From NCBI RefSeq assembly GCF_014279995.1, contig NZ_CP047935.1, forward strand, positions 2,191,494 to 2,255,493: a stretch of DNA of 64,000 nt. Direction: 5' to 3'. Under the pieces are notes generated by a model. That model did not search any database. It had not been told where the DNA came from and worked only from the letters and a program-made list of their open reading frames with translations. The stretch is from Synechococcus sp. BIOS-E4-1. Its GTDB lineage: Bacteria; Cyanobacteriota; Cyanobacteriia; PCC-6307; Cyanobiaceae. Positions 4,267 through 23,892 of this stretch are shown here, one piece after another. A program made the translations under genes and the position numbers. Position 1 is the first letter of the stretch, and each line of letters starts with the position of its first letter.

Positions 4267-4302
4267 CACAGCCCGGAAGCAGCGCCCATTGTGACCTCTG
4301 AA

Positions 4303-4346
4303 GCGGCACGGGTGGCGACGTTCTGCGGCACGGGTGGCGACGTTCT
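4303..4346. repeat. Perfect 22-bp tandem duplication upstream of psbD
   Basis: The 22-base unit beginning GCGGCACGGGTGGCGACG occurs twice back to back (4303-4324 and 4325-4346), and a third copy begins (GCGGCAC, 4347-4353) before diverging. It lies 37 bp from the ycf4 start and about 160 bp upstream of psbD, in the shared promoter region. Two complete helical turns per unit means it would place any bound protein twice on the same face. Confidence 0.95.
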
Positions 4347-4509
4347 GCGGCACTGCCACAAAGGCTGCGATCAAAGCGGAAGAAACCCCGAAGAAATGTT
4401 CCGATACAAGGGGTTTCAGGTGAATGGATTTACCCCCGCAACCTTCGCCGAAATTGTTAAGGTCGCCGGGTATCCCACAGCCTGCGGATATCCGCACCCG
4501 TTCTCACTC

Positions 4510-5565
4510 ATGACGATCGCTGTAGGACGCGCGCCACAGCGGGGATGGTTTGACGTCCTCGATGACTGGCTCAAGCGCGACCGCTTCGTTTTTGTCGGCT
4601 GGTCCGGCATTCTTCTCTTCCCAACGGCCTATCTGGCCATCGGTGGCTGGCTCACAGGCACCACCTTTGTCACCTCCTGGTACACCCACGGCATCGCCTC
4701 CTCGTACCTGGAAGGTTGCAACTTCCTCACAGCTGCTGTGTCCACCCCCGCTGATGCGATGGGTCACAGCCTGCTGCTGCTCTGGGGCCCTGAAGCCCAG
4801 GGCGACTTTGTTCGCTGGTGTCAGCTCGGCGGCCTCTGGGCCTTCGTGGCCCTGCACGGTGCCTTCTCCCTGATCGGCTTCATGCTGCGTCAGTTTGAGA
4901 TCGCCCGTCTGGTCGGCATCCGTCCTTACAACGCCATCGCCTTCTCCGGTCCGATCGCGGTGTTCGTCAGTGTCTTCCTGATGTACCCCCTCGGCCAGAG
5001 CAGCTGGTTCTTCGCGCCCTCCTTTGGTGTGGCAGCGATCTTCCGTTTCCTGCTCTTCCTGCAGGGCTTCCATAACTGGACTCTCAATCCCTTCCACATG
5101 ATGGGCGTCGCCGGCATCCTCGGCGGTGCACTGCTCTGCGCCATCCACGGCGCCACCGTGGAAAACACCTTGTTTGAGGATGGTGAACAGGCCAACACCT
5201 TCAAGGCGTTCGAACCAACCCAGGAAGAAGAGACCTATTCCATGGTCACCGCCAACCGCTTCTGGAGTCAGATCTTCGGTATCGCCTTCTCCAACAAGCG
5301 CTGGCTGCACTTCTTCATGTTGTTCGTGCCTGTGATGGGCCTTTGGACCAGCTCCATCGGCATCATCGGCCTGGCCCTCAACCTGCGCGCCTATGACTTC
5401 GTGTCACAGGAAATCCGCGCTGCAGAAGATCCCGAATTCGAGACCTTCTACACCAAGAACATCCTTCTGAATGAAGGTCTGCGTGCCTGGATGGCACCGG
5501 CTGACCAGCCACACGAAAACTTCGTCTTCCCTGAAGAGGTTCTGCCCCGTGGAAACGCCCTTTAA
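4510..5565 (+). CDS. psbD: Photosystem II D2 protein
   Basis: 351 residues from the ATG at 4510, the standard D2 length. The N-terminus [20 protein letters not shown] is canonical. Five transmembrane helices are evident, and the reaction-centre region includes [20 protein letters not shown], the [16 protein letters not shown] block with ligands for chlorophyll and non-haem iron, and the C-terminus [13 protein letters not shown]2 pairs with D1 in the photosystem II core. The frame is open upstream to 4243, but that segment is promoter and leader. It overlaps psbC by 17 bp. Confidence 0.98.
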
Positions 5566-7404: not shown

Positions 7405-8016
7405 TCAAACCTGCGGTAACCAACGGCGCAGCAACGGCAAGCTGAGCCCGATCACGTTTGAATAACAACCGTCGAGACGCTCGACAAATGAGCCTCCAAG
7501 GCCTTCCAGGGCAAAGCCTCCCGCACAGCGAAGAGGTTCGCCACTGGCGACATAGGCTTCAATCTCGTGATTGCTGAGATCAGCAAACAACACCCGTGTG
7601 GTTACGCACGCAAGCAGCGGCTGCTGCGACGTCGCACCAGGGCCTGTCATCAGGCAGTGGCCCGTATGCAGATCACCCCAGGATCCACGCATTTGTTGCC
7701 AGCGTTCCAACGCTTGAGCCGAATCAGCAGGCTTTCCGTACACCTGACCAGCAAAAACAAACAACGAATCACAGCCGAGCACAGCTGTGATTCCAGCGTT
7801 ATTGAGCTGGCTGCGGACGGCGCTCGCCTTGGCCTGCGCCAGACGCCTCACTAATTCGGTCGGATCGGAATCCTGGATGGCCTCTTCGTCGACTCCGCTG
7901 ATCTGAACGCGGTGGGGAATGGCCGCCTGTTCCAGAAGACGACGTCTAGCCGGGGACGCTGAAGCCAGCAACAACATTGGTTTCTCGGTTTGCGGCATTG
8001 AGAACGAGAATGGCAC
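7405..8016 (-). CDS. maf: Maf-like nucleoside triphosphate pyrophosphatase
   Basis: 203 residues. [16 protein letters not shown] is the family N-terminal motif, followed by VDEEAI, AKASAV and GCDSLFVF, with [12 protein letters not shown] later. Maf proteins hydrolyse non-canonical or modified nucleoside triphosphates and are linked to septation control. The start may be at the first Met or at the Met 14 codons in, directly before LLLASASP. It is divergent from the Npun_F0494-type gene with about 16 bp between starts. Confidence 0.92.
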
Positions 8017-8032
8017 TGACAGCAGGTCAGGC

Positions 8033-8413
8033 GTGACTCTTCAGGACCCAAGAGAACTCACAAGGCATGCTCTGGGGAGGGCGCGCCAAGCCGTGCGTTG
8101 CCTTCCTTTCCAACGCAGCTTTTACCGCAACGTTGAAGAGGCAGCTCTGAGCAGCAGTGAACTGGTCGCTCAATCTGACTGGTCGTCACAGACAAGAAGG
8201 CGGCTGAATGCAAGGGAGACGGAGGATCTGCTGATCTGGCTGATTCAACTGGGAGTTCTGCGTCGGGAGGTTGACGGTCAGGGGCTGACGGAACGGGTGC
8301 GTTTAACCCCTCTTGGCAGGGAGGTACTGATCCCCTGGCAGGAAACGATCCCTTCAGCCGGCCTTGGAAGCCGTTTGATGCATTGGTGTCGTCGCAATCG
8401 CCCCCGCTGGTAA
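8033..8413 (+). CDS. Npun_F0494 family protein
   Basis: 126 residues from a GTG at 8033, chosen because it clears the divergent maf start and the conserved part begins just after it. [17 protein letters not shown] and [34 protein letters not shown] resemble the cyanobacterial Npun_F0494 family of unknown function, which has a winged-helix-like appearance. Its last 65 bp are nearly duplicated at 11490-11554. I recall cobQ following this gene in related genomes; here the lanthipeptide island separates them. Confidence 0.7.
8346..8410 (+). repeat. 65-bp direct repeat, copy A (end of Npun_F0494 gene)
   Basis: It matches 11490-11554 at 61 of 65 positions by direct alignment. This copy is the 3' end of the intact gene and encodes [17 protein letters not shown]. 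Confidence 0.9.
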
Positions 8414-8547
8414 GCGATATCCCAATGACAGCAAGACGTTTATCAAAAAACTTTGTTGTAGCCAACAGGTGAAAAACGCATCACTGACAAGTCACCAGAG
8501 TCCAGACGAAGTCGCCGGCTGGGTCGTGCAATGCTGATGCAGAAACT

Positions 8548-8692
8548 TACGTGAAAGGCAAGTAACAGAACACCCTGACTGACTTTGCTGATGCTGCTGG
8601 GGACCAGCAATGGCGGAGGACAGTTGCCAATGACTTCAGTGCTCTAAAGAGCGCTGAAACGCAATCTGAAACAACACTGCGCTGGAGAAGAT
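8548..8692 (+). pseudogene. Decayed 5' fragment of cobQ
   Basis: From 8589 about 100 bp align to the start of the intact cobQ (22408 onward) with roughly three quarters of bases identical. Translated, LMLLGTSNGGGQLPMTSVL-stop-RALKR matches the intact [25 protein letters not shown], with the P-loop destroyed and an in-frame TAA. It lies 135 bp right of the intact Npun_F0494 gene, where cobQ itself would be expected without the island. The remainder of 8414-9026 shows nothing else recognisable. Confidence 0.85.
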
Positions 8693-9026
8693 CTCTCAGG
8701 CTTCGATGGAACAATAATTGAGCAACTCTGAGATCAATCAAAGACAATATGCCTGGAAATCAAAATGAACCAAGCCTTTGAATAAAGATTTTACTGCGGA
8801 AGACAATCAACAAAAGAAGCCGATAACGACAACAATCGATGACCAAAACGAACTTAAGACGAAGCTACACACAACAACTAAAGAGGATTAGCCATCTGAT
8901 TGAAATGCATAGCTATGATCCTTTGCGACATAGAGACATATTCGAACCACAGAAAGATGTTGCCTTGACAAGCTGAATCATCTATGTTTCAGCAACACTA
9001 AATGATGGCTGACGGCCACCAAGCGA

Positions 9027-10082
9027 GTGCACGATCAGGCAGGAAATCTAGCTAAGGCACTGAAATGGCTGGAAGGCCAACAATACAAGTTTCTGCCTTC
9101 AAAGCTCATCAGAGACAATGATCTGCCACTCATCAAAGCTCCACAGAAACCGCGAAATCATTCAAACCAGAGACAAACAGGAGTGATCCTTGAGTGTCCG
9201 CTCAATCAATTATGCGCGGACAAAGTTGATTTGTCATTTTATGGTAATAGAGAGATCCTGGACATCAAAGACTCCGGCATTCCCGGTTTTGCTCAATCCC
9301 TAGGTGCACTCCTAGACAACGAATCACTCAGAAACTTCCTTGTTGATCAGTATTTTACTGAGTTTGACCATCATTCAAACAAACTCCGACTAGCGGGAAT
9401 CTTCCAAGCTCTGGACAAAATATCAATGGTCATCAATGCCTATGAAATCATCACTGAATTGCTGATCAAGAGCAGAGCCTATCCCGATTTTAAATACCAG
9501 GAGCACCAACCTTTGCGAGATTTTCTGAGTGTCACAGGATTACCAAGTCAGATTGGAATCATGTGGGCAAGGGGGCATACGATCAAAGTGATTGGACAAA
9601 CGACTCAAGCGAAAGCCAAAAAGGATTTCCTGGAAAAATATTTCAGCAAGGTGGTCGAACACTCATCAGGAGTGATAACACGTCTTGCGAATCAGAATAT
9701 ACACCCCGAAGGAATTCAGCCTCTGAGTTACAGCCTTGATTACGACATTGAACAACAGGCTTTCCTGCCTCGGTTGTCCATTGAAATCTTTCCATCTGTA
9801 TGGCCTAGAGGTGGCCAGTGCAATGCATTACCAATGCTTGATTGGCTATGCAAGCTGAGTCCAGATCAACGCGTAATTATCGAGCAGTTCTGTGCCGGTC
9901 TGCCCATCGGAGCGTGCGAATCGCATCCTAGCTGGATGGTTGAGGCTGGGATTTTCGCACAAGAAGAGATCACCTATCTGGCCCTGCCATCCCACTTGAA
10001 GCTGTCATTCCAACATGGCCACACGAGTGTAAAAGGCTATTTCTATGCCATCAGTGACCTGACACCTAATCAGCATCAATAA
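9027..10082 (+). CDS. Unrecognised 351-residue protein in the lanthipeptide island
   Basis: It starts at a GTG and is 351 residues, soluble, without signal peptide or membrane span. I recognise no family. The N-terminal third is basic (IKAPQKPRNHSNQRQ). The second half contains LSYSLDYDIEQQAFLPRLSIEIFPS and a final LPSHLKLSFQHGHTSVKGYFYA, which look like paired strands. Five cysteines fall mainly in the C-terminal half (GGQCNALPMLDWLCKL, EQFCAGLPIGACE). It lies between the cobQ fragment and the lanthipeptide precursor, so it arrived with the island; a role in the peptide system (tailoring, immunity, regulation) is possible but not shown by the sequence. Confidence 0.75.
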   Translation: MHDQAGNLAKALKWLEGQQYKFLPSKLIRDNDLPLIKAPQKPRNHSNQRQTGVILECPLNQLCADKVDLSFYGNREILDIKDSGIPGFAQSLGALLDNESLRNFLVDQYFTEFDHHSNKLRLAGIFQALDKISMVINAYEIITELLIKSRAYPDFKYQEHQPLRDFLSVTGLPSQIGIMWARGHTIKVIGQTTQAKAKKDFLEKYFSKVVEHSSGVITRLANQNIHPEGIQPLSYSLDYDIEQQAFLPRLSIEIFPSVWPRGGQCNALPMLDWLCKLSPDQRVIIEQFCAGLPIGACESHPSWMVEAGIFAQEEITYLALPSHLKLSFQHGHTSVKGYFYAISDLTPNQHQ

Positions 10083-10252: not shown

Positions 10253-10278
10253 CACCCCCCTGTATGAGAAGGGGGGTG
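10253..10278 (-). terminator. Hairpin terminator downstream of the lanthipeptide precursor
   Basis: An 8-bp stem CACCCCCC / GGGGGGTG with a 10-base loop, 32 bp past the precursor stop; on the minus strand it is followed by TTCTTATT. It could also serve the convergent 9027-10082 gene. Confidence 0.7.
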
Positions 10279-10309: not shown

Positions 10310-10531
10310 TCAGCAGCCAGTTCCAGCGCCATTGGTCGCTTTCCAGTTTGTGCAAAGGTTTCCGCACCACCCCACGGCAACCTCTTCAAGCTCCTCGCTG
10401 CTGAGAGGGCTCAGCTTCGCACTGGCATCGATTTCATGACCATGCTCCTTGGCGATGCCACTAACGTCATCCAGTGAATTTGAATCCTTTAACTTGGCTT
10501 GAAGATCTGCATTGGTCTTGACCTTAGCCAT
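10310..10531 (-). CDS. lanA: Lanthipeptide precursor, Nif11-type leader (prochlorosin-like)
   Basis: From the ATG at 10531 the product is 73 residues. In frame, eight more codons read SKEQLDAF, exactly the start expected of a Nif11 leader, and are preceded by ATT at 10558 in the position of the usual Met; an in-frame TAA at 10579-10577 rules out an ATG further up. The leader ends LSSEELEEVAVG, matching prochlorosin leaders (LSDDELEGVAGG) except Val for the first Gly of the cleavage pair. The predicted core is WCGNLCTNWKATNGAGTGC: 19 residues, Cys at 2, 6 and 19, Thr at 7, 12 and 17, no Ser, so up to three methyllanthionine rings. It is the only precursor seen. lanM lies upstream on the same strand, almost 1 kb away. 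Confidence 0.88.
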   Translation of the reverse strand: MAKVKTNADLQAKLKDSNSLDDVSGIAKEHGHEIDASAKLSPLSSEELEEVAVGWCGNLCTNWKATNGAGTGC

Positions 10532-10558
10532 GAAGGCATCGAGCTGCTCTTTAGAAAT

Positions 10559-11394
10559 TGATTTAAAAAACCTAATTTAAAGTGGCAAATCTGATCAAAA
10601 ACGTCATGTACAAACATTCACGATATTAATCTTGACAGGTCGCATTGGGCCAAACAGAAATGATCACAACGACTGAACGATCAAACAAAGCGATTGTGAG
10701 CTCTCTGTTTGGAAAGCGGTCGGTCAGCACCCTTCGATATCCAGCTGGTCCGTTACGCATGTCCTCGCTGATCTGACCAATAGCCAGCACCCAGTTCACC
10801 CCTGCCTTTCCGCCATCTCTGATCAATCAGAGGCTGAATGGTTAACATGCAGGCGTGGCCTTCAACCACCCGAACATCCCTTATTTCGACTGTTTGCGAT
10901 TTTATCGAAGACAACATCTCAAACTGCGTAACAATAACGGGTGACTCTTTTACTGAAAGAAGGTTTGCCTCAGCAAGCCAAGCCGGGGCTCCTGGAAAAA
11001 CCAGCAGCATGCGGGCAAGACATTAGCTGGACTATTCAGACAGAAAAATTTTCAGACAGAGAACTTTTCACATATCGGAAAGAACCGCAGCATTCCAATC
11101 TCATTGAAAACAAAAAAATGACCAGTAACTCCGAAGCAACTCACTACGGAGTGACTGCTCTCTGCTAATTGCTTTCAACAAACATGCGTGAGCATTGCCA
11201 TGATCTGTTTCCAAGTCATCGAAATATGTACGGTAGTAAAAATTTCGAACCTCCTGGTTGACATTTCAAGTTAAACGGAACTTTTTCGCTTGTTCAATTT
11301 CATCGCTGAAAACATGCCAGCTGATGGGATCAATCATCACTTCTGTGCATTGTCAATAGCGGCATCAAAGATTGGGTTGGTCGCCGAATGACGC
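10559..11394. other. 836 bp with no clear gene
   Basis: Apart from a possible broken exported ORF (10626-11010, minus), nothing convincing is seen here. The region between the precursor and the Npun fragment is AT-richer than its surroundings and has no long ORF. Confidence 0.6.
10626..11010 (-). pseudogene. Possible frameshifted small exported protein
   Basis: Two overlapping minus-strand ORFs (10753-11010 and 10626-10826) look like halves of one protein. The first begins with a signal-like MLLVFPGAPAWLAEA and reads to HACMLTIQPLI; shifting frame near 10820 continues RDGGKAGVNWVLAIG to a stop at 10626. Joined, they give about 125 residues. No family is recognised; it may be a relic carried by the island. 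Confidence 0.3.
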
Positions 11395-11554
11395 GAAGTC
11401 GATGAAAGTGTTAGGCGTTCACAGAGCGTGTTCGCTTGATCCCGCTGGCCAGAGATGTGCTCATCTCATCACCTGGCCGGCCGGAATCGCGATCCCTTCA
11501 GCAGGCCTTGGAAGCCGTCTGATGCATTGGTGTCGTCGCAATCTCCCCCGCGGG
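11395..11554 (+). pseudogene. Decayed 3' fragment of an Npun_F0494-type gene
   Basis: Frames here read REVDESV, then after a shift FTERVRLIPLARDVLIS, matching REVDGQG and [17 protein letters not shown] of the intact gene at 8033-8413. About 53 bp before the repeat align at roughly 64 percent, with indels and a stop, whereas the last 65 bp align at 94 percent. The fragment lies antisense to the last codons of lanM, so its 3' end also encodes the lanM C-terminus. Confidence 0.75.
11490..11554 (+). repeat. 65-bp direct repeat, copy B (overlaps lanM 3' end)
   Basis: The partner of 8346-8410, with four mismatches. On the minus strand it encodes the last residues of LanM (MHQTASKAC) plus the stop. 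Confidence 0.9.
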
Positions 11555-14500
11555 TGAAAGCAAGCCAATGGTCAGAAGCGTGCCGAGCCGATCATCGCGA
11601 TTCAGCTGATCACGCAAAGCCAGACCCATCCCGGAGATTCCTGTAAAACAACCCGGCAGCAGCAGGTTGCCGTCGGCCGTGCCGAAACCGCGGAAAGCTC
11701 CGCCATTTTTATTGGCAATGGAGACCGCCTGAGCAACAAGTTCAGACGATCTTTCGATCGCAGTCGCACGGACGGACTCTGCAACGGATTTCGCCCATGG
11801 CCCCTCAGCCACAACGCGAAGAATTCCGGCATTTCCGAAGGTGCCGCAGCAGAGATGGTCACACCAGGGCATCTTCAGCGCAGTAAGTGTCTGCAGAGCA
11901 TTAGACATTTCATCAACGCAATGCTCATCCCAGAGCGGAGAGCCAAACAGACAAGCCCGGCTCAAGGCGATTCCGGGTGCACCATGGCACCAAGAGGTCA
12001 TGAACTTGTTCGGCTGATCGGGTTGGTACTCCCGGTAATCGGGCCAGTTGAGGTGTTCCGCATCAAAACGCTCACGTTCATAGCTGAGAGCCTTGGCCGC
12101 CGCATCGAGGAAACGCTGCTCACCCAGCTGCTGCCCCAGCTTGACAAGCGCAGCCAGATATCCAGCGGTTCCATGCGAAAAGCCGAGCAAGGGCTCCTTG
12201 CCACGACTAGTCCAAGCTCCCTGTTCGTTTTGGAGACCCAGAAGATGATCTCCGGCAACGAGAGCCAAGTCCAGAGCTCGTATCGAACCATCCCTGAGCA
12301 GAGGCCCAATCAGACCGGTCACACCAGCGATCACGTCGAGACCGAGGTCGGCGCGAATATGTTCCGGAAGCAATGCCTCGATGAGTCTGGTCTGCAGCTC
12401 CCGGAGCATTGGCTGTTGTGATTCCGGTCCCCAGGTCGACAATTCCTGAATCGAGAGCAATGAACCGCCGCAACCACTCAAGCCAAGTGCCTGGTCACGC
12501 CACCAGCGCAGGCGCAGACCATCGCGGTCCTTTTCACCCATCTGGAGCATAGGTTTCAAACAAGTCTCGACCAGTTCGGCTGGACCAGGCTCATCGGCGA
12601 AATGGGCTGCCAGTAGAGCAACACCGATGGATCCACCGTAAAGCGAGGTACCAACAGGGCCGAAGCAGAAACTCTCACCATCACTGCCAAGATCCATTCC
12701 TAACCAGTCGATGAGGCCATCTGTATCGCGAATGGCAATCTCTTCGAGCAACTTGAGCTGAAGACGGCTCTGCTCGTGGAGCTGCTCAGGCGTGAGCGTC
12801 ACGACGTCAACATCGGGCGCGACACCATTTCGGGAACTTCGGCCATCTTCAGTGGAGATGCGCGCACGGCTGGTACCGCGGATTAATTGCTCCTGGAAAG
12901 CAACGGCTGCTGAATCCAATTCAGCAATACGCTGACGACTCGACTCCAGACCACTGGTTTCCATAAACCCTTCAACGGGCTTCATGCCGTCAACTAAGGG
13001 AAGATCCTGCCCATCGATGGAATGCACGAAAAATGGAATATCCAGACGCTCCATCTGACGCAGTTCAGCTTCAAACACAGGCCAGTGCAGCGGTTGTTCG
13101 CTGGCCATCAGAAAACTGCGGGTGAGCTGCTCGAGCACCAGTCCCTGGCGGAGGGACGAACGCAGAGCCGCTGGCTCAAGTTGCTGACGCTGCAATGCGA
13201 AATAAACACGGGTGGCCCGCAGCACAATGCGACGCGGAAGCCCACGGAATTGATCGAGGACCCCACCAGGTTTGATCCAATCCTCACGCGTCTTCTCAAA
13301 TTCAGCGCACTGCTCACGGAATCCCTGGCAGAAGGTCTCAAGATGGGCATTGAGACCATTGGTTGCACCAACCCCCACTGGAAGACTGGTGGGCAACAGT
13401 GATGGACGACTGATCTGGGCGGCCATCATGCCGTCACTGTTCAGCCCCAGCCAACCCGGCCCCTTCGTCTGGGGACTGGAGGGGGGGGCAATGCCTAGAG
13501 CGCTGATATCGACAGCGATCTTGGCCTGACCGACAAACAGCCAGTTCGGCATCAGACCTGATCGAAGCACTGAATTCTGAAAACTCTTCTGAAGATCCGA
13601 CTGAGACAGAGTTGTCTGTTGATCAGAGGCATCAGAAACATGATCAGGCAAATCAGCTTCAAGCAGAGTTTCGGTATCGATTAACAGCAGCTGATCCCCG
13701 CAGGCGATTAAGTTCTCGTAGTGGCAATCAGTGCAGCCGAAGAGATGAAGCACGGCTGTCAATCGTCCGGCATTGCGATAGAAGCGCTCCAGTTCATCAT
13801 CTCCTGCACAGAGACGATGCTCGACATGCTCCATGTATCCGTAGTCGTTACCGCAGTAAATCCGCAAATTGCGCAGCGGCGTCAGTGTGCTGACGCTGTT
13901 GAGATGTTCAAGTGCCTGCTGGTAAGCAAAGTCCACACCCATGTCTTTGGGCTTGTAGACCACTTGCACGGAAGAACTTCTATCAGCTTGAGCAAACTTC
14001 AGAATGCTCACAACCTGACCATGGTTGTGGGGATCACTCAGGCCCTGATGGACTCCGGACAGCTCCATCTCAGGCGCGACGCCAAAGAGCTGCTGCAGGG
14101 GAATCGTGTCAGCATCAACCCGCCGAAGCAGCATTTCATTGGAATGGTGCCAATCACCACAGACCTGCCCCAGATATCGTCCCAGCACTGGGAACGTCTC
14201 CAGAAACGATGCCAATCCATCGCATCGGTGCTCCCTGATGAACCGCTCGTAATACTCCCTGACAGGAGGACCCTGGCCATCACCACCTGAACCGAGATGG
14301 GCCAGCAACATCGCTCCGGGAGGCCGCTGCAAATTGAATTGCTCGAACAGGGCCTGTTCAGAAATATTGCTCAACCTGGTGAGCAGTGACTGACCTAAGG
14401 AGCGGTAAACCTGTTCGTTGATGCTGCGATCTTGGAGATCGTCCAAGCTGCTGCGCAGGCGCGCGACGAAAGCATCAACCGCGGGAATCCACAGGTCGCG

Positions 14501-14881
14501 GAAAGGGAGCTGATCAGGATTCGCCTCCGAGACTTCCGCGACATAAGGCTCAAGCTCACGTTCAGCATCACTGCGCAGTGCTGACTGCAGAAAAGTCAAT
14601 TCCTGAAACCAGGTCTCCGTGCTCGAGGATTCGTTGGGCTGCTCAAGCTGATCGAGCACTCTGTACAGAGCAGGACGATCAAGTCCAGCCCATGCAAAGC
14701 GACGCTCAAGCTTTTCACGTTCCTGAGGCGCGATCGCTTCCAGCCATGCTTCGCCCAGCCCAGGCTGCCGGTCTTCGAGATCGTCGCGAGTAATGGATGG
14801 ACCAGTCGATGATTCAGAAGGGGAAACCTTTTCGGCGTCCATCAGCTGATGCAAGGAAGAGAGTTTCTTGGGCGCAGGCAT
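11498..14881 (-). CDS. lanM: Class II lanthipeptide synthetase LanM (ProcM-like)
   Basis: 1127 residues. The N-terminal two thirds are the dehydratase, which phosphorylates and eliminates Ser/Thr; its kinase-like core shows VVYKPKDMGVDFAY, CTDCHYENLI and LLIDTETLLEAD. The C-terminal LanC-like cyclase has SWCHGAPGIAL (Cys965) and DHLCCGTFGN (Cys1011, Cys1012), the three-cysteine zinc site of the cyanobacterial CCG group, with the same 46-residue spacing as ProcM Cys924/970/971. In ProcM this site goes with broad substrate tolerance. LanM acts on the Nif11-leader precursor in the cytoplasm. Its start is 6 bp after the ABC transporter stop. The last codons run through a copy of an Npun_F0494 gene end and look like an acquired tail. 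Confidence 0.95.
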   Translation of the reverse strand: MPAPKKLSSLHQLMDAEKVSPSESSTGPSITRDDLEDRQPGLGEAWLEAIAPQEREKLERRFAWAGLDRPALYRVLDQLEQPNESSSTETWFQELTFLQSALRSDAERELEPYVAEVSEANPDQLPFRDLWIPAVDAFVARLRSSLDDLQDRSINEQVYRSLGQSLLTRLSNISEQALFEQFNLQRPPGAMLLAHLGSGGDGQGPPVREYYERFIREHRCDGLASFLETFPVLGRYLGQVCGDWHHSNEMLLRRVDADTIPLQQLFGVAPEMELSGVHQGLSDPHNHGQVVSILKFAQADRSSSVQVVYKPKDMGVDFAYQQALEHLNSVSTLTPLRNLRIYCGNDYGYMEHVEHRLCAGDDELERFYRNAGRLTAVLHLFGCTDCHYENLIACGDQLLLIDTETLLEADLPDHVSDASDQQTTLSQSDLQKSFQNSVLRSGLMPNWLFVGQAKIAVDISALGIAPPSSPQTKGPGWLGLNSDGMMAAQISRPSLLPTSLPVGVGATNGLNAHLETFCQGFREQCAEFEKTREDWIKPGGVLDQFRGLPRRIVLRATRVYFALQRQQLEPAALRSSLRQGLVLEQLTRSFLMASEQPLHWPVFEAELRQMERLDIPFFVHSIDGQDLPLVDGMKPVEGFMETSGLESSRQRIAELDSAAVAFQEQLIRGTSRARISTEDGRSSRNGVAPDVDVVTLTPEQLHEQSRLQLKLLEEIAIRDTDGLIDWLGMDLGSDGESFCFGPVGTSLYGGSIGVALLAAHFADEPGPAELVETCLKPMLQMGEKDRDGLRLRWWRDQALGLSGCGGSLLSIQELSTWGPESQQPMLRELQTRLIEALLPEHIRADLGLDVIAGVTGLIGPLLRDGSIRALDLALVAGDHLLGLQNEQGAWTSRGKEPLLGFSHGTAGYLAALVKLGQQLGEQRFLDAAAKALSYERERFDAEHLNWPDYREYQPDQPNKFMTSWCHGAPGIALSRACLFGSPLWDEHCVDEMSNALQTLTALKMPWCDHLCCGTFGNAGILRVVAEGPWAKSVAESVRATAIERSSELVAQAVSIANKNGGAFRGFGTADGNLLLPGCFTGISGMGLALRDQLNRDDRLGTLLTIGLLSPAGEIATTPMHQTASKAC

Positions 14882-14887
14882 CGTCCT

Positions 14888-17032
14888 TCAGTGTCCCTTC
14901 GACAGAATTTCTGCAAGGTAGCCGTGATGCTTGAGTTCGTCCCAAGTTCCATTTTCAGCAGTAACACCATCGCGAATCACAACGATCTTGTCCGCATCTC
15001 GGATGGTGGCAAGACGGTGCGCAACGCTGATTCTTGTAATCCCCAGAGACTGCACCGTCTCATTGATGCGCTGTTGTGACGGTGGATCCAGAGCACTGGT
15101 GGCTTCATCCATCAGCAGCACTCGAGGTTGATGGATCAAAGCTCTGGCGATAGCGATTCGCTGTGCCTGGCCACCAGACATGTTGCCGGCCCCTTCCATC
15201 ACAATCGTCTCCAGCTTCATCGGCATGGCTGCCACCTCATCAGCAACAGAAGCAGATTCAAGCGCTGCCCAGATTCGATCTTCTTCGGTTACAAGGCCTC
15301 CTGAAACAATGTCGTAAATCGAGCCGGCGTTGAGATGGGCAGTTTGAAGAACAACACCAAGCTGACGGCGGTAATGGCGGATGGCGAGCTGAGGCAGGGC
15401 AAGCCCGTCGATCAATAAATCACCCCCCTGAGGTTCAATAAAACCCAGGAACATATTCATAATTGTGGATTTTCCACAGCCGCTTGGTCCTGTGATCACC
15501 GTGTGCTGACCAGGTTTAATTTCGAAATTGAGGTTGCGATAAAGCGGTTCACTAGCGTCAGGAAACTGGTAAACAACATCTCTGAACAGGAAATGTCCTT
15601 CCAGGTCATGATGCACCGCATCAGGTTCATAACCCTTCTCAACTTCGGCATAAATCACCGGTTCGGCACGCTGCCAGAGAACGCTGGCTCGACCTAAGGT
15701 ATTGGCCGCAAGATTGGCGGCCTGAGAGAGGGATGAGTTGAATCCTGTGAATGCGGCATTGAAGGAGATGAAGCTCACCAGAATCAGCTCAAACTCCGCT
15801 GAGGTGCTGGCACTGGACAGCAGTTTGTGAGTCACCACCGCGAACATCATTAAGGAAGCCAATGGACTCACCAGCGTTCCGAACATTTCGATCGCATCGT
15901 TATAAAAGTTGCTGCGCAATTGCAGCAACGCATATCGATTGATCTCGCGCAGCCAGCGAAGCATCACAAAGGGTTCTGTTGCGGAACTGCGAATCTGCGC
16001 CAGTCCCATGACCGATTGCAGTGAGAAGTTTGTAATCTCTGCGCCAGTCTCCAACAAAGGTTTTTGTAGTTGAATATCACGAATCGTGAGATAAACCAGA
16101 GATGCAAGAGAAACAATTGTGAACAAAGCAGCCCAGATAGCTAGCGAGCGGTCATAGATCACCATCAGAATGAAGTATCCAAGACTGAAGACTGAAGAGA
16201 GCAATGTCGATAGGACACCACTTCCTAGCAACTGACGCAATTGATTGATCGATTCAATACGTGACGCAAGATCACCTGTGGTGTACTTGGAAATGAAGCG
16301 CATTGGAAGACGCATTACGCGATCAAAAACTGCGGTCTGTAATCGCAGGTCCGTAACACTTTCAATCCGCAGCATCATTATGGTCTGCAGATACTGGGCA
16401 GCAGCAACACCCACCACCACTACGATCACAATCGCCAGACCCTCAATCAGTAGTGCACTATCGTTTTCAGGCAGAATCCGATTCACCAGAACATTGGTGA
16501 AGATCGGTATGGAAAGATGAAACGTCATCACTACTGCAGAAGCAATAACCAGAGCCCAGATCGCATTTAACTCTGTATTGAATGCAAAATTGATCACCGC
16601 TAATGGACCAACAATCTTGGCCGGTAATGAGGGGTAGATCTCGTACCCATCACTGTCCAGGCGGACATCCTCCGGCACGAGCCAGTGTCGTCCCTGAGCT
16701 GCGGAATAGAACCAGTTCCGGCCGCGATCGCGGTACAACGCCAAAGGTTCACCAGTCGCCTGATCTTTGACGATCAGCATGGGAAATTCAGATTTCCATG
16801 GCTCACGCGGGGCGTCCACGCGGCGGTGATGAATATCGTTGTGATCGAGCTGAAGACTGATATCAGCATCGGGCATGGCAATCAACGATCGCGCTGGTGC
16901 TTTCAGACGCCGAAGACAGAAGCCGATCAATCGAAGATCACGCTGAGGATCGGTCTCTTCCACAACCTCAAAGATGAGGTTTTTCTCTAGTTGATCAACC
17001 TGCTGAAGAGCGCGTTTGCGAGAGTCAGTCAT
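14888..17032 (-). CDS. NHLM-type ABC transporter, permease/ATPase without peptidase
   Basis: 714 residues: a long N-terminal cytoplasmic region (about 1-150, no C39 catalytic Cys), a six-helix ABC membrane domain (about 150-450), and an ATPase with Walker A GPSGCGKS, signature MSGGQAQR, Walker B VLLMDEATSALD and H-loop SVAHRLATI. This matches the NHLM bacteriocin ABC ATP-binding protein that accompanies a peptidase-containing partner. It probably forms a heterodimer or a parallel transporter for lanthipeptide export. It is the fourth gene of the minus-strand operon, 4 bp after the PCAT gene and 6 bp before lanM. Confidence 0.93.
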   Translation of the reverse strand: MTDSRKRALQQVDQLEKNLIFEVVEETDPQRDLRLIGFCLRRLKAPARSLIAMPDADISLQLDHNDIHHRRVDAPREPWKSEFPMLIVKDQATGEPLALYRDRGRNWFYSAAQGRHWLVPEDVRLDSDGYEIYPSLPAKIVGPLAVINFAFNTELNAIWALVIASAVVMTFHLSIPIFTNVLVNRILPENDSALLIEGLAIVIVVVVGVAAAQYLQTIMMLRIESVTDLRLQTAVFDRVMRLPMRFISKYTTGDLASRIESINQLRQLLGSGVLSTLLSSVFSLGYFILMVIYDRSLAIWAALFTIVSLASLVYLTIRDIQLQKPLLETGAEITNFSLQSVMGLAQIRSSATEPFVMLRWLREINRYALLQLRSNFYNDAIEMFGTLVSPLASLMMFAVVTHKLLSSASTSAEFELILVSFISFNAAFTGFNSSLSQAANLAANTLGRASVLWQRAEPVIYAEVEKGYEPDAVHHDLEGHFLFRDVVYQFPDASEPLYRNLNFEIKPGQHTVITGPSGCGKSTIMNMFLGFIEPQGGDLLIDGLALPQLAIRHYRRQLGVVLQTAHLNAGSIYDIVSGGLVTEEDRIWAALESASVADEVAAMPMKLETIVMEGAGNMSGGQAQRIAIARALIHQPRVLLMDEATSALDPPSQQRINETVQSLGITRISVAHRLATIRDADKIVVIRDGVTAENGTWDELKHHGYLAEILSKGH

Positions 17033-17036
17033 GCCA

Positions 17037-19229
17037 TCAAACCTCTACCTGATCGCGCCGTTCAGCGGCCACGAGTTTCGTGAACGCTCCATCCGGATTA
17101 GCTAGCAAGTCATCAGGATGCCCACGCTCAACAACCTTGCCCTGAGCGAGAACAAGCACCTGTTGACTGCTCAGCGCTGCATCCAGGCGATGAGCACTAC
17201 TGACGACAGTAATGCCACGCTTTTGGACGGCATCAATCACACGACGCTGAGTCAGGTTATCGAGGTTGCTTGTTGCTTCGTCGAGAAGCAGAATCGAAGG
17301 CCGACGAATCAAAGCACGGCAGATTTCAAGACGCTGGCGTTCTCCCCCACTGAGATCACTACCGTTATCTCGCAGTTGTCTATGAAAAGCTTCTGGTTGC
17401 GAGTTGATCATTTCCAGCAACTGAGCATCAGCCGCTGCAGCCTGTAGGTCTTCTTCAGTGAAATCAGGATTCCAGAGAGTGATGTTGTCTCGAATGCTGG
17501 CGTTGAAAACAAACACCTGCTGCGGCACATAAGCGATACTCCCGCGCACGACCTGATCATCCAGTTGATCCCAGTTCTTACCGTCGAACAGAATCTGACC
17601 TTGAAGTGGGTCCACCAGACCTGCAAGAATCCGGATCAAAGTGGTCTTGCCAGATCCACTCGCACCCACCAGCGCCAGCCTTGACCCAGCAGGAACATCC
17701 AGATCAATGGCCGGGATGAAGGGAGGATCAACGGCGTTGAATCCATAGGCAACACCTTCGAATGTGATCCGTCCCTGGAGACGATCTTCCGTATCGATTC
17801 CATCCCTGGCATCCTGAAAACTGCGCACATGGGGATCATCCGCCGTGGTCGTGAGGTCCATCAATCGGCCCAGATTGCCGATCAGACGCTGAAGGGTGGA
17901 ACTCAACTGAGGAAGCGTGGAAATTGGGGCCACCAACTGGGCTTGAAGGAACTGAAACGAAACAAGCAGACCCAGAGAGATCCTTCCATCAATGATCAAC
18001 AGACCACCGACAGTGATCACCAGAGCTTGAAGCAACAAGGTTGCACTGCTGGCACTGATGCTGGACCAGGCGAGCTGGGCGCCAAGCAACTGGTTCTGTT
18101 CAACGACGGATCCGAAATTTCCCTGCCACTGACTCAGAAAATCAAACTCAAGTCCGGAGGCTTTAAGTGTTTCGATGGAGTTGATACCTTGAAGGGCACG
18201 GCCCTGCGCCTTTCCCTGCTCAATGGCAAGTTTACGGTTGGCGTCATAACGGCGAGCCGTGAGCCACCAATTGAACAAAAGATTGAAGACAAGCAGAGCT
18301 GCGACAAGTGCGGTCAGCCAGAACGAAATCAGGCAGGTCACGACCATCAATAGAAGCGCCGCCCAGATGGTCACGACAAAACGCAGCAACTGTGCAACAA
18401 CCACCTGAGTGATTCTCATCCCCAGCAACATCCTGGACGCCAGTTCTCCTGCCATGCGAACCTGAAAAAACGCCCATGGCACCGAGAAGAGCTTTTCGAA
18501 CAAATCAACGGTCAGCTTCTTGGAAAGCAACAGTTCAAGCCGACGCAACAAGACAAACTGAACGACCAAAAGAATGAGCCAAAGCACGCAGCTGAATCCC
18601 AACAACCAGACGATGGGAATACCGAAATAAAGCCTTTCTTCCTGTAAGAAATCAGAGATGAAAGAGGAGGTCAGTCCTGCAACTAAAATATTCGGAATGA
18701 GCAGAATCGAGGCTACGAGGAGCAGACTCAGCACCTGCCTCCGATAAGGCATCAGCAATCCAGGCAGCATCCAGAGCGGAGATTCGTCATGGCCTCCACG
18801 TTTAAATTCCGGGCCTGGTGAGAACTCCATCACGACACCGGTGAACTGATCGAAGAACTCCTCTTTCAACATGCGACCCCGACCTTCAGCGGGGTCGCTC
18901 ACATAGGCGTATTTCTGATCAAATCCCTCAAGTACAAGGAAATGATTGAATCCCCAGAAAACGACACAGGGGAACTGTCCCTGCACAACAAGCTGCTCGC
19001 CGGAACAGCGAAAGGCCTTGGTCTCAAGGCCGAAACTTCGAGCAGCCAAAAGCACGCGCTGGGCGTTGGAACCATCGCGATTGACACCACATTCACGACG
19101 TAATTGAGGCAGAGGCACGATCCGACCGTAATAACGGAGGATTGTGGCCAGTGATGCTGCACCACACTCGGTCGCTTCGTACTGCAAAACCGTCATGGCC
19201 TTGACCCGACGTGAAGCGGAGGAAGCCAT
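17037..19229 (-). CDS. lanT: Peptidase-containing ABC transporter (C39, NHLM type)
   Basis: 730 residues. The N-terminal C39 peptidase has LQYEATECGAASLA (oxyanion Gln16, catalytic Cys22), FWGFNHFLVLEGF (catalytic His) and SDPAEG (Asp). It is followed by six membrane helices and an ATPase with Walker A GASGSGKT, signature LSGGERQR and Walker B ILLLDEATSNLD. Such proteins cleave the leader after a double-glycine motif and export the core peptide. Here the likely substrate ends VG instead of GG. The start overlaps the stop of the HlyD gene by one base (TGATG). Confidence 0.95.
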   Translation of the reverse strand: MASSASRRVKAMTVLQYEATECGAASLATILRYYGRIVPLPQLRRECGVNRDGSNAQRVLLAARSFGLETKAFRCSGEQLVVQGQFPCVVFWGFNHFLVLEGFDQKYAYVSDPAEGRGRMLKEEFFDQFTGVVMEFSPGPEFKRGGHDESPLWMLPGLLMPYRRQVLSLLLVASILLIPNILVAGLTSSFISDFLQEERLYFGIPIVWLLGFSCVLWLILLVVQFVLLRRLELLLSKKLTVDLFEKLFSVPWAFFQVRMAGELASRMLLGMRITQVVVAQLLRFVVTIWAALLLMVVTCLISFWLTALVAALLVFNLLFNWWLTARRYDANRKLAIEQGKAQGRALQGINSIETLKASGLEFDFLSQWQGNFGSVVEQNQLLGAQLAWSSISASSATLLLQALVITVGGLLIIDGRISLGLLVSFQFLQAQLVAPISTLPQLSSTLQRLIGNLGRLMDLTTTADDPHVRSFQDARDGIDTEDRLQGRITFEGVAYGFNAVDPPFIPAIDLDVPAGSRLALVGASGSGKTTLIRILAGLVDPLQGQILFDGKNWDQLDDQVVRGSIAYVPQQVFVFNASIRDNITLWNPDFTEEDLQAAAADAQLLEMINSQPEAFHRQLRDNGSDLSGGERQRLEICRALIRRPSILLLDEATSNLDNLTQRRVIDAVQKRGITVVSSAHRLDAALSSQQVLVLAQGKVVERGHPDDLLANPDGAFTKLVAAERRDQVEV

Positions 19230-20626
19230 CAGCCAAACACCTTTGGACTGCCGCTTGGCAAGGACGATGATTGATCCGATTGACGATCTTGCTTTTGTTT
19301 AGGTTCAGGTGGAGTCAGCCCCAGCAATAGTCTCAGTCGTGGAATCACCAAGGAAATGGGCGCTACACGACGGGTTGTGATCGAGACATTGAGCTGATCA
19401 GCGGTTTTAGGCGGGAAGGGCAAATTACTCTTGGAATTCCAGACATAACCGCCACGGTTGCCTCCCCGATCTTGCGCGGAGCGTTGCAGTTCAACAATCG
19501 CAAGCGTGGGACTGGGTTCCCGCTGTTGAATCACCTTCGCCAGGCTACTGGAACCAATACGTGCCTCCAGATCCTTATCGCCGCTGGGCAATTCAGACAT
19601 CTGTACAACGCGTCCAAGAATTCCACCCACCTCAGAACGACGCATTCCGACAGGGGTAACAAGCACCGACATGCCAACATTGACCTGAGCAGATTCACGC
19701 TCGGAAAGAAAAACAGGCACCTGCACTGGATTGCTTAACGATTCACGACTAAGCAGCAAGAGAAGATCACCCTGAGAAACGCCCTCGCCATTATTGGGAA
19801 TAACCTGACGGATATAAAGGTCGTAATCGGCAAAAACAAAGCCTTTCGAAATCATCTGAGCCAGTGACTTGCGCAGCTTGATGAATGACTGCTGCAATTC
19901 TGTTTGCAGATGGACCAAAGAGTCACGGTTAGAAAAAACTTTGGATTTAAGATTGTCAACTTCAGCTTGATTTTGAAGAATTGTTGGCTTACTAACGAAG
20001 CCCTTTTTCGTCAGTTCGAGCATCGAATTGAGAAAAGTCTGCCGACTCTTAAGCTCTTGTTCAAGAATTGATTGTTTTTGAATCAGCGTTTTTTGCTGAA
20101 TACGATTAAGACGACCAATCGAGGCAAGCGTGTCAACCTGGGCCTGCAACGATTCCTGCTCCTGAAGCGACTGCAACCAGATCAGTAGAGTCCCCTCGGG
20201 GTAGATCCTTTTATCTTTAAGTACACCATTGGATTGAGAAGGTGCAGAAAACTCTGACGTTGAGTACGTACGAAGGATGCGACGGGAGAGATCCAGTACA
20301 GCTGCATCTGATAGCTGATCGGGCTGACGCTGGAATTTCTGAACATCAGCAACCCAGTTATTTTGCTTTTCAGCAAACATCCAACGGGCAATACCATCCA
20401 CTTGAGCACGTTTTCTGTTGATCTCGCCTACAGGCAACAGAACCCCGGTGCCTTTGACCTCAATGGGTATTTTTGCCAGAAACGCCCATAAAACACCAAC
20501 AGCAGCCAATGCAACCCCAAGACCCAGAGTAATGCGCAGAGGCGGGGAGAGAACAACAATTGGAGAACTTTTATCTCCGGCCTGATGACGCTTGCGCAGG
20601 GCACGTTTTTCGAAGATTTCTCTCAT
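19229..20626 (-). CDS. HlyD-like membrane fusion protein (NHLM type)
   Basis: 465 residues: a basic cytoplasmic start, one membrane helix (about residues 30-52), VKGTGVLLPVGEI (first half of the lipoyl-like domain), a long coiled-coil region with EQELKSRQTFLNSMLELTKKGFVSKPTILQNQ, then the beta-rich part and a low-complexity Gln/Ser tail. It bridges the inner-membrane ABC transporter and the outer-membrane channel in one-step secretion. It overlaps the TolC-like gene by 4 bp upstream and the PCAT start by one base downstream. Confidence 0.92.
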   Translation of the reverse strand: MREIFEKRALRKRHQAGDKSSPIVVLSPPLRITLGLGVALAAVGVLWAFLAKIPIEVKGTGVLLPVGEINRKRAQVDGIARWMFAEKQNNWVADVQKFQRQPDQLSDAAVLDLSRRILRTYSTSEFSAPSQSNGVLKDKRIYPEGTLLIWLQSLQEQESLQAQVDTLASIGRLNRIQQKTLIQKQSILEQELKSRQTFLNSMLELTKKGFVSKPTILQNQAEVDNLKSKVFSNRDSLVHLQTELQQSFIKLRKSLAQMISKGFVFADYDLYIRQVIPNNGEGVSQGDLLLLLSRESLSNPVQVPVFLSERESAQVNVGMSVLVTPVGMRRSEVGGILGRVVQMSELPSGDKDLEARIGSSSLAKVIQQREPSPTLAIVELQRSAQDRGGNRGGYVWNSKSNLPFPPKTADQLNVSITTRRVAPISLVIPRLRLLLGLTPPEPKQKQDRQSDQSSSLPSGSPKVFG

Positions 20627-22230
20627 CTCAGACTTTTCTCCTGCTGGCGCACTAATTGATCACTTTCACCCGGCCAGGTTGCCGAGTAGCGGTAAAGCTG
20701 AGCCACCGATCTATTGTAATTAAGAATGGAGTCAGACAGTGAGATGGAAGCAGTCCCCAGCTGCTCAATGGTCTGCACAATGGACGTGATGTCTCCAAGG
20801 CCAATTTCGTAACGAGCTCTGGCTGCTTCCTGGGCCACTTGAGCTGACTGATACGCCAAACGCGCACTGTCGACGGCAACTCGCGAGGTTTCATATTGCC
20901 CAAAGCTGGAGCGAACCTGCTGAACCGCCTGGAGACGATTCATCTCGGCCTTGGAACGCTCCATCTCTTCCTGGGCGTAATCAGAGCGAGCAGCTGCTGC
21001 ATCAACTCCTCCATCCCAAGTCCATTCAAATCCGAGACCGACGGCGGCATTCCACTGGGTTTGAAGCTGTTCACTTCTAGCATTATCAAGACCTGGGGAG
21101 CCATTAATCACGCCGCTTGCCATCGAAAGACCACCCTCTCCATACAACAAAACAATGGGCAAATAACTGTTTATCTTGCTGATCCCATCCCAACGCGCTT
21201 CTTCTGCGGCAGCAAGACTGGCAAGAATCTCCTCTCGTGATTCGACAGCTCGATCAATTGTTTGAGGCAACGTCTTGGACCAGTCACGATAAAGGTTGGC
21301 CTTCTCGTCAGGCAAGACAAGCTTGTCAACTGGCAAGCCAAGACGCATCGCAAGAGTTGCTGATTCCTCAATAAATTGCTTGGTGTATCCCAGCAACTGG
21401 TTCAGCTGATTATACAGCTGAGTTTGTGTCTGCGCCAGAGCCAGCATGGATACCAAGCGAATTTCGTAACGCGCTCTATTGACTTCAAGGAGCTGACGAT
21501 TAATGTCATAAATATTGTAAAACTCTTCAATCAGCTGTCGAGTACTTTGCAGAGCAAAATACGACGTCTGGATATTGAGAATTAAATCGCGAGCACTGAC
21601 CTCGAAAAGCAACTTTTGTTGGCGAAGGGCTTCGGACGCTGCATTGATATCAGGCTGACGAGTAGGATCAATAAAATTCCATGAAATGGAAGCATTTGGC
21701 TGAAAGTTCAAAGTGTTTGTATACTGAGATATTGAGGTAGGCTCAGTACCTATGGCACTACCTGGAGTTGTACTGACGGACGTTCTAAAGGGATCATTGT
21801 AAAACTTAGTTATGTAAGTACCAACATCTAAGCCGAGAGTAGGCGATCCGTTACTGATTGCAAAAGTGGGATACCATTGACGCTGAGCGGCAATCAATTG
21901 CCATTCATAATCTTGAATGGATCGAAAAGCTGAAACCAGCTCGGGGTTATTGCGAATACCCAGCGCAATCGCTTCATCAAGAGATATTTTACGCGCAGAC
22001 TTATCAATTTTGTCTCGCATGGCATTCAGTCTTGCCAGAAGCTGATCAGCCTGCTGCTCAGCGGAGAGAGAATGTTGCCCGGACACTTGACCGACTGATG
22101 TCCCAGGATTGGCTTGAACAGTAGGCACAAGCTCTGCGGCTTGCGCATCTACCGATGAAAATGGGTAACCGATTGAGAACACACCGACAGCGACTCCGAA
22201 TAAGCTCTTGTATTGCCTGGTTCGGAGCAA
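20623..22230 (-). CDS. TolC-like outer membrane efflux protein
   Basis: 535 residues. A signal peptide (about 1-32, ending VDAQAAE) precedes two related helical halves typical of TolC: ISLDEAIALGIRNNPELVSAFRSI opens the first, and the second ends ARARYEIGLGDITSIVQTIEQLGTA followed by SDSILNYNRSVAQLYR. It is predicted to be the outer-membrane exit duct of the lanthipeptide exporter. It is the first gene of the operon; the 150 bp between it and the divergent cobQ hold an inverted repeat at 22256-22277 that could mark its promoter. Confidence 0.92.
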   Translation of the reverse strand: MLRTRQYKSLFGVAVGVFSIGYPFSSVDAQAAELVPTVQANPGTSVGQVSGQHSLSAEQQADQLLARLNAMRDKIDKSARKISLDEAIALGIRNNPELVSAFRSIQDYEWQLIAAQRQWYPTFAISNGSPTLGLDVGTYITKFYNDPFRTSVSTTPGSAIGTEPTSISQYTNTLNFQPNASISWNFIDPTRQPDINAASEALRQQKLLFEVSARDLILNIQTSYFALQSTRQLIEEFYNIYDINRQLLEVNRARYEIRLVSMLALAQTQTQLYNQLNQLLGYTKQFIEESATLAMRLGLPVDKLVLPDEKANLYRDWSKTLPQTIDRAVESREEILASLAAAEEARWDGISKINSYLPIVLLYGEGGLSMASGVINGSPGLDNARSEQLQTQWNAAVGLGFEWTWDGGVDAAAARSDYAQEEMERSKAEMNRLQAVQQVRSSFGQYETSRVAVDSARLAYQSAQVAQEAARARYEIGLGDITSIVQTIEQLGTASISLSDSILNYNRSVAQLYRYSATWPGESDQLVRQQEKSLR

Positions 22231-22255
22231 CGATCACCTCATAAAGCACCGTTAT

Positions 22256-22277
22256 CAAATCACAAATTTTTGATTTG
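22256..22277. promoter_or_regulatory. Inverted repeat between tolC-like gene and cobQ
   Basis: CAAATCA, 8 bases, then TGATTTG: a perfect 7-bp inverted repeat 26 bp upstream of the TolC-like start and about 100 bp upstream of cobQ, in an AT-rich stretch. It may be an operator or part of the operon promoter; no known regulator motif is recognised. Confidence 0.35.
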
Positions 22278-22380
22278 TCCACCAAGATCTGAAGCAGAAG
22301 CGTCACAGGCCTACAGAATTTCCCTGACGTTATGAACGCCACATTGCAATGGTGCATCTTCTGGACCAGGTCGAAGCGCA

Positions 22381-23892
22381 GTGAGCAGCACGTCCCGCCC
22401 AACTCCGCTGATGGTGCTAGGCACCAGCAGTGGCGCAGGTAAGTCGCTGATGACTGCCGCGCTCTGCAGAGTGCTGAAACGACGAGGGGAAACGCCACTG
22501 CCTTTCAAGGGCCAAAACATGAGCAACAACGCCTGGGTTGATCAGGGCGGAGGCGAAATGGCTTACTCCCAGGCATTGCAGGCCTGGGCAGCCGGTCTCG
22601 AACCAGTGCATGCCATGAACCCTGTATTGCTCAAACCCCAGGGCGACTCAACCAGCGAGGTCATTCACCTCGGGGACTCCGCAGGGACTTGCAAGGCAGA
22701 GCATTACTACAGAGATTGGTTCGACTCCGGCTGGGCTGCAATCCGCAGGGGGCTTGAAGATCTGCAGGCCAGCCATCCCGGCGGAAGACTGGTGCTTGAG
22801 GGAGCAGGCAGCCCGGTGGAGGTGAACCTGCAATCGCGCGATCTCACCAACCTGCGTTTAGCCAAATATTTGCGAGCCAATTGCCTGTTGGTTGCCGATA
22901 TTGAACGGGGAGGCGTCTTTGCCCAGATCGTGGGCACTCTCCAATTGATGAAACCCGACGAACGGCGACTCATCCATGGGCTGCTGATCAACCGGTTCCG
23001 AGGCAGAAGAGAACTTTTCGACGAAGGTCGACGCTGGCTCGACACCAACACAGGGATTCCGGTTCTGGGAGTAATGCCATGGCTTGACGAACTCTTCCCT
23101 CCTGAAGACTCACTGGACCTGCTGGAAAGGCGTGGACGCAAGCGCAGTGCCGAGCTGGAGATCGCCGTGTTGAAACTACCCTCATTAAGCAACTTCTCCG
23201 ATCTTGACCCCCTGGAGGCGGAGCCCACGGTTGAGCTGCGCTGGATCGCACCGGGTGAACGACTCGGGATTCCCGATGCCGTGGTGATCCCAGGAAGCAA
23301 ACAAACCCTTCGGGATCTTGCCTCACTGCGCAGCACCGGCCTGGCTGCTGATCTGATCAGCTACGCCAAAAACGGCGGTGAGCTGTTCGGCATCTGTGGC
23401 GGCATGCAGATGCTCGGGGTGGAACTGCATGACCCGCAAGGACTAGAGGGCAACGATCCTCCAGGGCAATCTGATGATTACGTTGCCGGCCTTGGTCTTC
23501 TCCCACTGCGAACGGTGTTCAGCGGTGCAAAAGCTCTGCATCAGAGGCAAGCCCTCGTGCTGTGGCCGGATCAACAACCGAGACTGGAGGTGGAGGGGTT
23601 TGAACTGCATCGGGGAATCAGCGAAGCCATCGAGGACTGCAATCCATTCAGTGCGGATCAAGACCTGGGTTGGGTGCGTGGGACCACTTCAGGAACCTAT
23701 CTCCATGGAATCTTCGAGAACGGACCCTGGCGACGACGGTGGCTGAATCGCCTTCGACACAGACGGGGCCTACCGGAGCTCAGTGAGCAACAACCCCACC
23801 ACAGTCGGCAGAGGGACGCGCTGCTCGACCGCTTGGCCGATGCCTTTGAGCAACATGTGAATCTGGAACCACTGCTGGAAACATCCACGTGA
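22381..23892 (+). CDS. cobQ: Cobyric acid synthase
   Basis: 503 residues from a GTG. The N-terminal dethiobiotin-synthetase-like domain has [12 protein letters not shown] (P-loop, residues 14-21) and [12 protein letters not shown]; the C-terminal class I glutamine amidotransferase-like domain has IPGSKQT and [12 protein letters not shown] (nucleophile Cys339), ending with a His-containing YLHGIFEN. It amidates four carboxyl groups of adenosylcobyrinate a,c-diamide in B12 (pseudocobalamin) synthesis. It heads a tightly packed run: the ferredoxin gene starts inside its stop (GTGA). A decayed copy of its 5' end lies at 8548-8692. Confidence 0.97.

Follow-up and report, generated by a model that had tools for sequence, protein, structure and literature searches.

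The closest described counterparts of the locus analysed here are the prochlorosin and synechococsin systems, in which a LanM (ProcM, SyncM) with CCG as its zinc motif occurs with a C39 exporter, HlyD and TolC, and in which Nif11-leader precursors are scattered over the genome (PMC10783134). That paper covers tailoring enzymes encoded in the neighbourhood of prochlorosin genes and gives the biological function of prochlorosins as unknown; the terms 'prenyl', 'Npun' and 'cobQ' are absent from its main text (PMC10783134). A native prochlorosin prenyltransferase is not reported in the titles and abstract openings listed in searches of the open literature. MppC of Moorena producens is described as a characterised ABBA prenyltransferase that geranylates Trp and works best on peptides that carry a Nif11-like leader and that LanM has already cyclised; together with MppM and MppE it makes up a set of ABBA prenyltransferase, class II synthetase and Nif11-like precursor (PMC12715784), to which our locus, with its predicted prenyltransferase, is similar.

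The locus lies in a 64 kb stretch of DNA (the window, used here for the whole of it) from Synechococcus sp. BIOS-E4-1, whose genome we call G000. Its order is Npun_F0494 (Npun), a cobQ relic, the gene at 9027–10082, lanA, an Npun relic, the lanM operon and cobQ (Table 1), as the first-pass annotation had read it. The lanM product belongs with the ProcM-like class II synthetases, scoring 707.6 bits against a TIGR03897 cut-off of 304, with LCCGTFG present in the ORF. The described ProcM and SyncM systems have LanM, Nif11-leader precursors dispersed through the genome, C39 exporter, HlyD and TolC in common with the window, which differs from them in its Npun–cobQ site, its overlapping, antisense-derived LanM tail and its prenyltransferase-like neighbour. 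Elsewhere in the window, an exact 22-bp tandem duplication (4303–4346) lies near the start of the ORF at 4243–5565, which, on reading the sequence, looks like a photosystem gene.

Table 1. Features of the Npun–cobQ locus, in window coordinates.
Feature	Coordinates	Strand	Evidence
Intact Npun_F0494 family gene, left copy	8000..8413	+	NF045586, E 7.6e-37, 125.6 bits, above the family cut-off of 65
Npun–cobQ spacer, like the empty-site spacer of G008 and G017	8468..8564	+	Shuffles, profile
cobQ 5′ relic, cobQ positions 5–122	8565..8681	+	nhmmer E 2.5e-13; BLASTN
ABBA-fold prenyltransferase-like gene, 351 aa (the 'unknown gene' of the first-pass annotation)	9027..10082	+	Predicted fold
Nif11-leader prochlorosin-type precursor, lanA/procA	10310..10531	-	PF07862, E 4.8e-7; TIGR03798, 37.5 bits, cut-off 32.3
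Npun 3′ relic	11391..11557	+	nhmmer E 3.5e-26
lanM, ProcM-like class II lanthipeptide synthetase	11498..14881	-	TIGR03897, E 2e-212
ABC transporter of operon	14888..17032	-	PF00005/PF00664
C39-peptidase ABC exporter of operon	17037..19229	-	PF03412
HlyD-like gene of operon	19229..20626	-	PF13437, 20.6 bits, below the Pfam cut-off of 22.2
TolC-like outer-membrane gene of operon	20623..22230	-	PF02321
Intact cobQ	22381..23892	+	

A DNA profile of Npun built from eight genomes, the window's included, gave two significant matches in the 64 kb, to the gene itself (8053–8413) and to 11391–11557, the latter aligning with model positions 212–362 of 362 (E 3.5e-26). The fragments REVDESV and FTERVRLIPLARDVLI, which had been noticed before, are indeed present in the sequence, and the block of about 65 bp reported at 94 percent is a 66-bp repeat (8346–8411 and 11490–11555) with four mismatches. 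The frameshifted part upstream (local match at about 11392–11480) reaches a score against seven of the eight Npun genes that none of 500 shuffles attained; against the eighth, from G023, 2/500 shuffles did so. Together, profile and shuffles show that the Npun 3′ relic beyond lanM is real and not a chance similarity. An extension of the relic upstream to 11257 appeared in a permissive alignment alone, without support from shuffles or profile, and was dropped. Across the 66 bp the relic differs at four positions from the strain's own left copy, at six from the copy in G028 and at nine or more from the remaining copies compared. It carries the letters of G000 and G028 at eight of the nine sites that separate these two genomes from G016 and G025, and therefore points to a source within the same clade, be it the strain itself or one closely related to it. 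The stop codon of the left copy is TAA, and TGA in all seven relatives compared.

The last 60 bp of the relic (11498–11557) are at the same time the 3′ coding end of lanM on the opposite strand, the lanM frame ending inside the 66-bp block at 11498. In all five relatives with this arrangement (G028, G016, G025, G023 and G012) lanM and Npun are adjacent and convergent, and their 3′ ends overlap by about 60 bp. The Npun-linked LanMs (6/6) extend 19 residues beyond a GLL motif, this tail being derived from antisense Npun, in contrast to LanMs encoded elsewhere, where each of the seven compared stops 2–5 residues past the same motif (GLL, GLF or GLW). Because the tails are antisense Npun and the reading frame ends there, the 94% block forms the final stretch of the lanM coding sequence and encodes the C-terminus of LanM. 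What had been described as a decayed copy is thus more than that, since its 94% block doubles as a working end of lanM. Bases 11544 and 11552, at which the left copy agrees with seven other genomes, are changed in the relic while the lanM frame stays open, as expected once Npun function is lost. The whole fragment combines ordinary genome decay with a functional lanM end, and an apparently dead gene fragment turns out to be the end of a working enzyme.

A search with the C-terminal 150 residues of LanM in 400 genomes of the family found matches in 26 genomes and no further tail of the Npun type; beyond the window and the five relatives, the sole match reaching position 146 is a weak one in G134 (34%, with an internal stop). 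Apparent internal stops in the LanM genes of G018, G015 and G005 proved to be natural gene ends. G000 encodes a second LanM (G000:C1:496481-499690, L013), 44% identical to that of the window and without the Npun-derived tail. Overlap of convergent genes with 3′ overprinting is a known phenomenon. As there, LanM gains residues from the antisense of its neighbour's 3′ end, but in the window the overlapped copy of the neighbour is a relic and the overlap persists as lanM coding alone.

We compared the Npun–cobQ site across 31 genomes of the genus, of which 26 have usable Npun and cobQ (neither gene is matched in G014, G020, G026 and G030, and G013 yields pieces alone). The lanM operon lies directly between the two genes, in the order Npun-lanM...tolC-cobQ, in five of the 26, the same five relatives as above. 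These are the strains for which a comparison of the locus had been proposed as a check, and an Npun–lanM junction is therefore present in intact form outside the window. In 20 genomes there is no operon at the site and the Npun and cobQ matches are 0–1716 bp apart; the split form is confined to the window's genome. The cobQ fragment is likewise real (E 2.5e-13), and its 8587–8680 portion is 75.8% identical by BLASTN to intact cobQ at 22407–22501.

The spacer between the left Npun and the cobQ relic resembles that of an empty site. Positions 8469–8579 match the direct Npun–cobQ spacer of G008 at 61% over 111 bp (0/500 shuffles); the direct spacer of G017 is less distinctive (4/500), as is, among operon-type regions upstream of cobQ, that of G016 (4/500), with the others at 17 to 352/500. 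A profile of empty-site spacers matches at 8475–8514 (E 0.0098), and a profile of operon-type cobQ-upstream regions finds nothing at the left spacer. These comparisons favour an empty-type left junction without being decisive, and the right junction reads plainly as operon type. The empty-site profile also matches upstream of the right cobQ (E 0.003), which counts against a joint of two alleles. Relics of maf, cobQ and Npun were also sought in the insert, in 70 comparisons (five stretches, seven targets, two strands) with loose gap costs and 200 shuffles each. Seven had scores reached by at most 6/200 shuffles, and two by none (8682–9026 with the region between tolC and cobQ, and 10532–10960 with cobQ on the minus strand); the cobQ and cobQ-upstream profiles did not match at these stretches, and we treat the gap-rich alignments as noise. 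No convincing maf relic adjoins the Npun relic.

On balance we favour a reading in which recombination at the locus joined an empty allele to an operon allele and the redundant copies then decayed, with the prenyltransferase–precursor pair between them. One site would have had two alleles, an empty one (Npun followed by cobQ) and one with lanM and its transport genes in between, in which the 3′ ends of the convergent genes Npun and lanM share about 60 bp. The two would have been joined by homologous recombination, in the simplest case through a single crossover at the 5′ end of cobQ, with the empty allele coming to lie on the left and the operon allele on the right. The redundant copies would then have decayed, the left cobQ to a 117-bp relic and the right Npun to one of 167 bp, of which the last 60 bp, seen to overlap lanM, were presumably kept since they encode the LanM C-terminus. 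Between the copies would lie the convergent pair of ABBA-fold prenyltransferase-like gene and Nif11-leader precursor. The first-pass annotation had proposed a single crossover of a circular or looped donor from another Synechococcus with the operon at the same site. Exchange between alleles of a shared site is retained here, with a single crossover as its simplest form, and such strains do exist; a circular or looped donor, or the operon as opposed to the empty allele as the incomer, would be an assumption beyond this.

In an alternative that we consider unlikely, the operon was resident and an empty-type fragment (Npun-cobQ′...prenyltransferase-precursor) came in, by homology at Npun and an illegitimate joint elsewhere. 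In G028, the closest genome by its flanks, the operon is already present at the site, and the third-position identity of lanM between G000 and G028 (80.6%; G000–G016 81.2%) is close to that of the flanks (81.0–83.9%), so that the lanM end is no more distant from G028 than the flanks are, which counts against a two-allele joint. There is no direct sign of an illegitimate joint, however, and the tolC side departs from the flanks. This departure also speaks for the favoured joint: third-position identity is 66.7% with G028 and 76.1% with G016 in tolC, and 83.9% and 68.4%, respectively, in cobQ. In sliding windows, identity between G000 and G028 is 86–93% in lanM, 78–85% in tolC and 93% from 22506 inside cobQ, a break at the cobQ 5′ end (within about 22207–22605) in the same stretch that the left cobQ relic represents. 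Since G028 has more private sites near tolC (52–54 per 500 bp, against 30 in G000), the break could belong to its history and not to that of G000. When G023 and G012 serve as outgroup, the flank tree, which pairs G000 with G028, is rejected by the concatenated operon (AU p 0.012); the best operon tree places G000 outside G028, G016 and G025, and a pairing of G000 with G016 and G025 stands unrejected (0.23). In the flanks the pairing of G000 and G028 is preferred, one alternative being rejected (p 0.0195) and the other not (0.092). Taken singly, none of the genes rejects one of the three trees at AU 0.05. Operon and flanks thus seem to differ in history, as if operon alleles had been exchanged within this group.

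We think it improbable that Npun, operon and cobQ were instead duplicated in tandem in place and the left operon deleted. Among the copies compared the relic is indeed closest to the strain's own left Npun, and the 54 bp after that gene bear a weak likeness to the lanM 3′ end (DNA p 0.0017–0.018 against the window background, protein about 0.007; 2/5000 in fixed register as the best of 24 tests), which would fit a duplicated operon allele. When aligned freely, the same likeness is reached by 39 to 430 of 500 shuffles, and a lanM 3′ profile finds nothing after the left Npun. The left spacer fits the empty type best, and the deletion would have to end near the normal Npun–cobQ spacing. A mobile prenyltransferase–precursor cassette that entered at the Npun end, with duplication of its target, is very hard to sustain: it would explain the direct repeat on both sides of the insert, but it leaves the cobQ relic unexplained, the repeat is about 167 bp with indels and not a short exact target duplication, and neither the prenyltransferase-like gene nor the precursor has an integrase or transposase match in Pfam or NCBIfam. 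Chance similarity or an assembly error is scarcely credible given the E values of the two relics, a lanM frame that runs through the block and is matched in five relatives, and a genome assembled as one contig.

The pair of prenyltransferase-like gene and precursor is what most deserves following at this locus. The ORF at 9027–10082 has no Pfam or NCBIfam match. When eight members of its family were scanned at E up to 1, NCBIfam returned no family and Pfam solely DUF2281, in one member (0.17); PDB sequences gave no match at E up to 10. An AlphaFold2 model from an eight-row alignment (pLDDT 76.7, pTM 0.79) has one Foldseek match under 0.001, the CL190 prenyltransferase (7fhf, E 1.8e-6), which we take to be NphB; VIA superposes the two with Z 16.1 and 3.6 Å over 262 residues. 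A second member, modelled from the same eight rows, matches AmbP1 by Foldseek (E 1.9e-7) and CdpNPT by VIA (Z 17.9, 3.8 Å over 296). All 50 VIA entries listed for each model are prenyltransferases, and the predicted fold is shared with NphB, AmbP1 (Z 14.8 over 259 residues), CdpNPT and PatF (14.0 over 258), at only 6–14% sequence identity in the alignments listed. By predicted fold, from two models that share the same eight rows and lack sequence-family support, 9027–10082 is ABBA prenyltransferase-like. R182, K187, K325, K336 and Y338 are invariant in its family.

Relatives of the gene occur in seven of the 400 genomes of the window's family, and a profile search of 388 genomes of the class found them in five, all within that family; the match in G076 covers solely the C-terminal half of the model. 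One match, in G118, reads in its frame as a different, ferredoxin-like protein and was dropped from the count, leaving ten loci in eight genomes, and among the genomes searched the prenyltransferase-like family is seen solely in one picocyanobacterial family. Two further loci are in G000 itself (G000:C1:434507-435640, L164 and L165; G000:C1:2019595-2020671, L137 and L158), both near Nif11-leader ORFs.

The window precursor carries a Nif11 leader by its TIGR03798 score. Its stop-free frame extends to 10576, its leader ends EELEEVAVG without the GG of a double-Gly cleavage motif, and its core has two Trp. Just past the gene, at 10253–10278 on the minus strand, lies a terminator-like hairpin of nine pairs; such hairpins are no more numerous in the region than in shuffles. 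A Nif11-leader precursor-like ORF lies within 1 kb of the prenyltransferase-like gene at nine of the ten loci and at 1.7 kb in the tenth. The leader profile used was built from ORFs beside seven of these genes, which leaves G074, G076 and the third G000 locus as the independent cases; of the precursors at the six other loci, five had already come up in a tblastn search with that of the window, and the one of G012 was found by motif. As background, 5.9% of gene positions in G000 are within 1 kb of a counted Nif11 ORF and 8.1% within 2 kb, a lower bound drawn from 152 Nif11 positions with 126 candidates outside the count.

In G208, which belongs to a different genus, the prenyltransferase-like gene (+), the precursor (-) and lanM (-) are ordered and oriented just as they are in the window, and at these two loci the gene is linked, as MppC is, to both lanM and a Nif11 precursor. 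Because of this linkage to a precursor and the predicted fold, 9027–10082 is a candidate prochlorosin prenyltransferase, likely acting on LanM-cyclised prochlorosin. An MppC-type enzyme is its best functional reading by analogy; MppC is biochemically characterised (PMC12715784), whereas the window family, outside Pfam and NCBIfam, is known from predicted fold and linkage. The orthologous prenyltransferase-like genes of G028 and of the 2.02 Mb locus of G000 are 70% identical, and their paired precursor cores differ at one residue; prochlorosin cores are described as little conserved (PMC10783134). These near-identical cores are rich in Trp (G028 L135, about 4667–5002; G000 L137, about 4641–4955). 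Cores were readable at 20 of 29 other loci, one of which is paired and was moved to the paired set. An aromatic enrichment of paired cores was considered and rejected: W or Y is present in 7/7 paired and 13/19 unpaired cores (Fisher p 0.15).

A joint reading, which we offer tentatively and which may well prove wrong, is that a sequence-distinct ABBA prenyltransferase family moves together with single prochlorosin precursors and adds prenyl groups to them once LanM has cyclised them, giving lipidated prochlorosins, and that the Npun–cobQ site is a recombination hot spot at which lanM operons are exchanged between species. On the favoured two-allele account the window keeps a scar from which allele exchange at one lanthipeptide locus can be read, and the prenyltransferase-like family supplies testable candidate enzymes for prochlorosin lipidation. 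Independently of this, G000 has at least 150 Nif11-leader matches over the TIGR03798 cut-off (150/150 scored among 276 candidates, a few with internal stops), which exceeds 83, the highest prochlorosin precursor count given in the published survey (PMC10783134), the two counts having been made by different methods.
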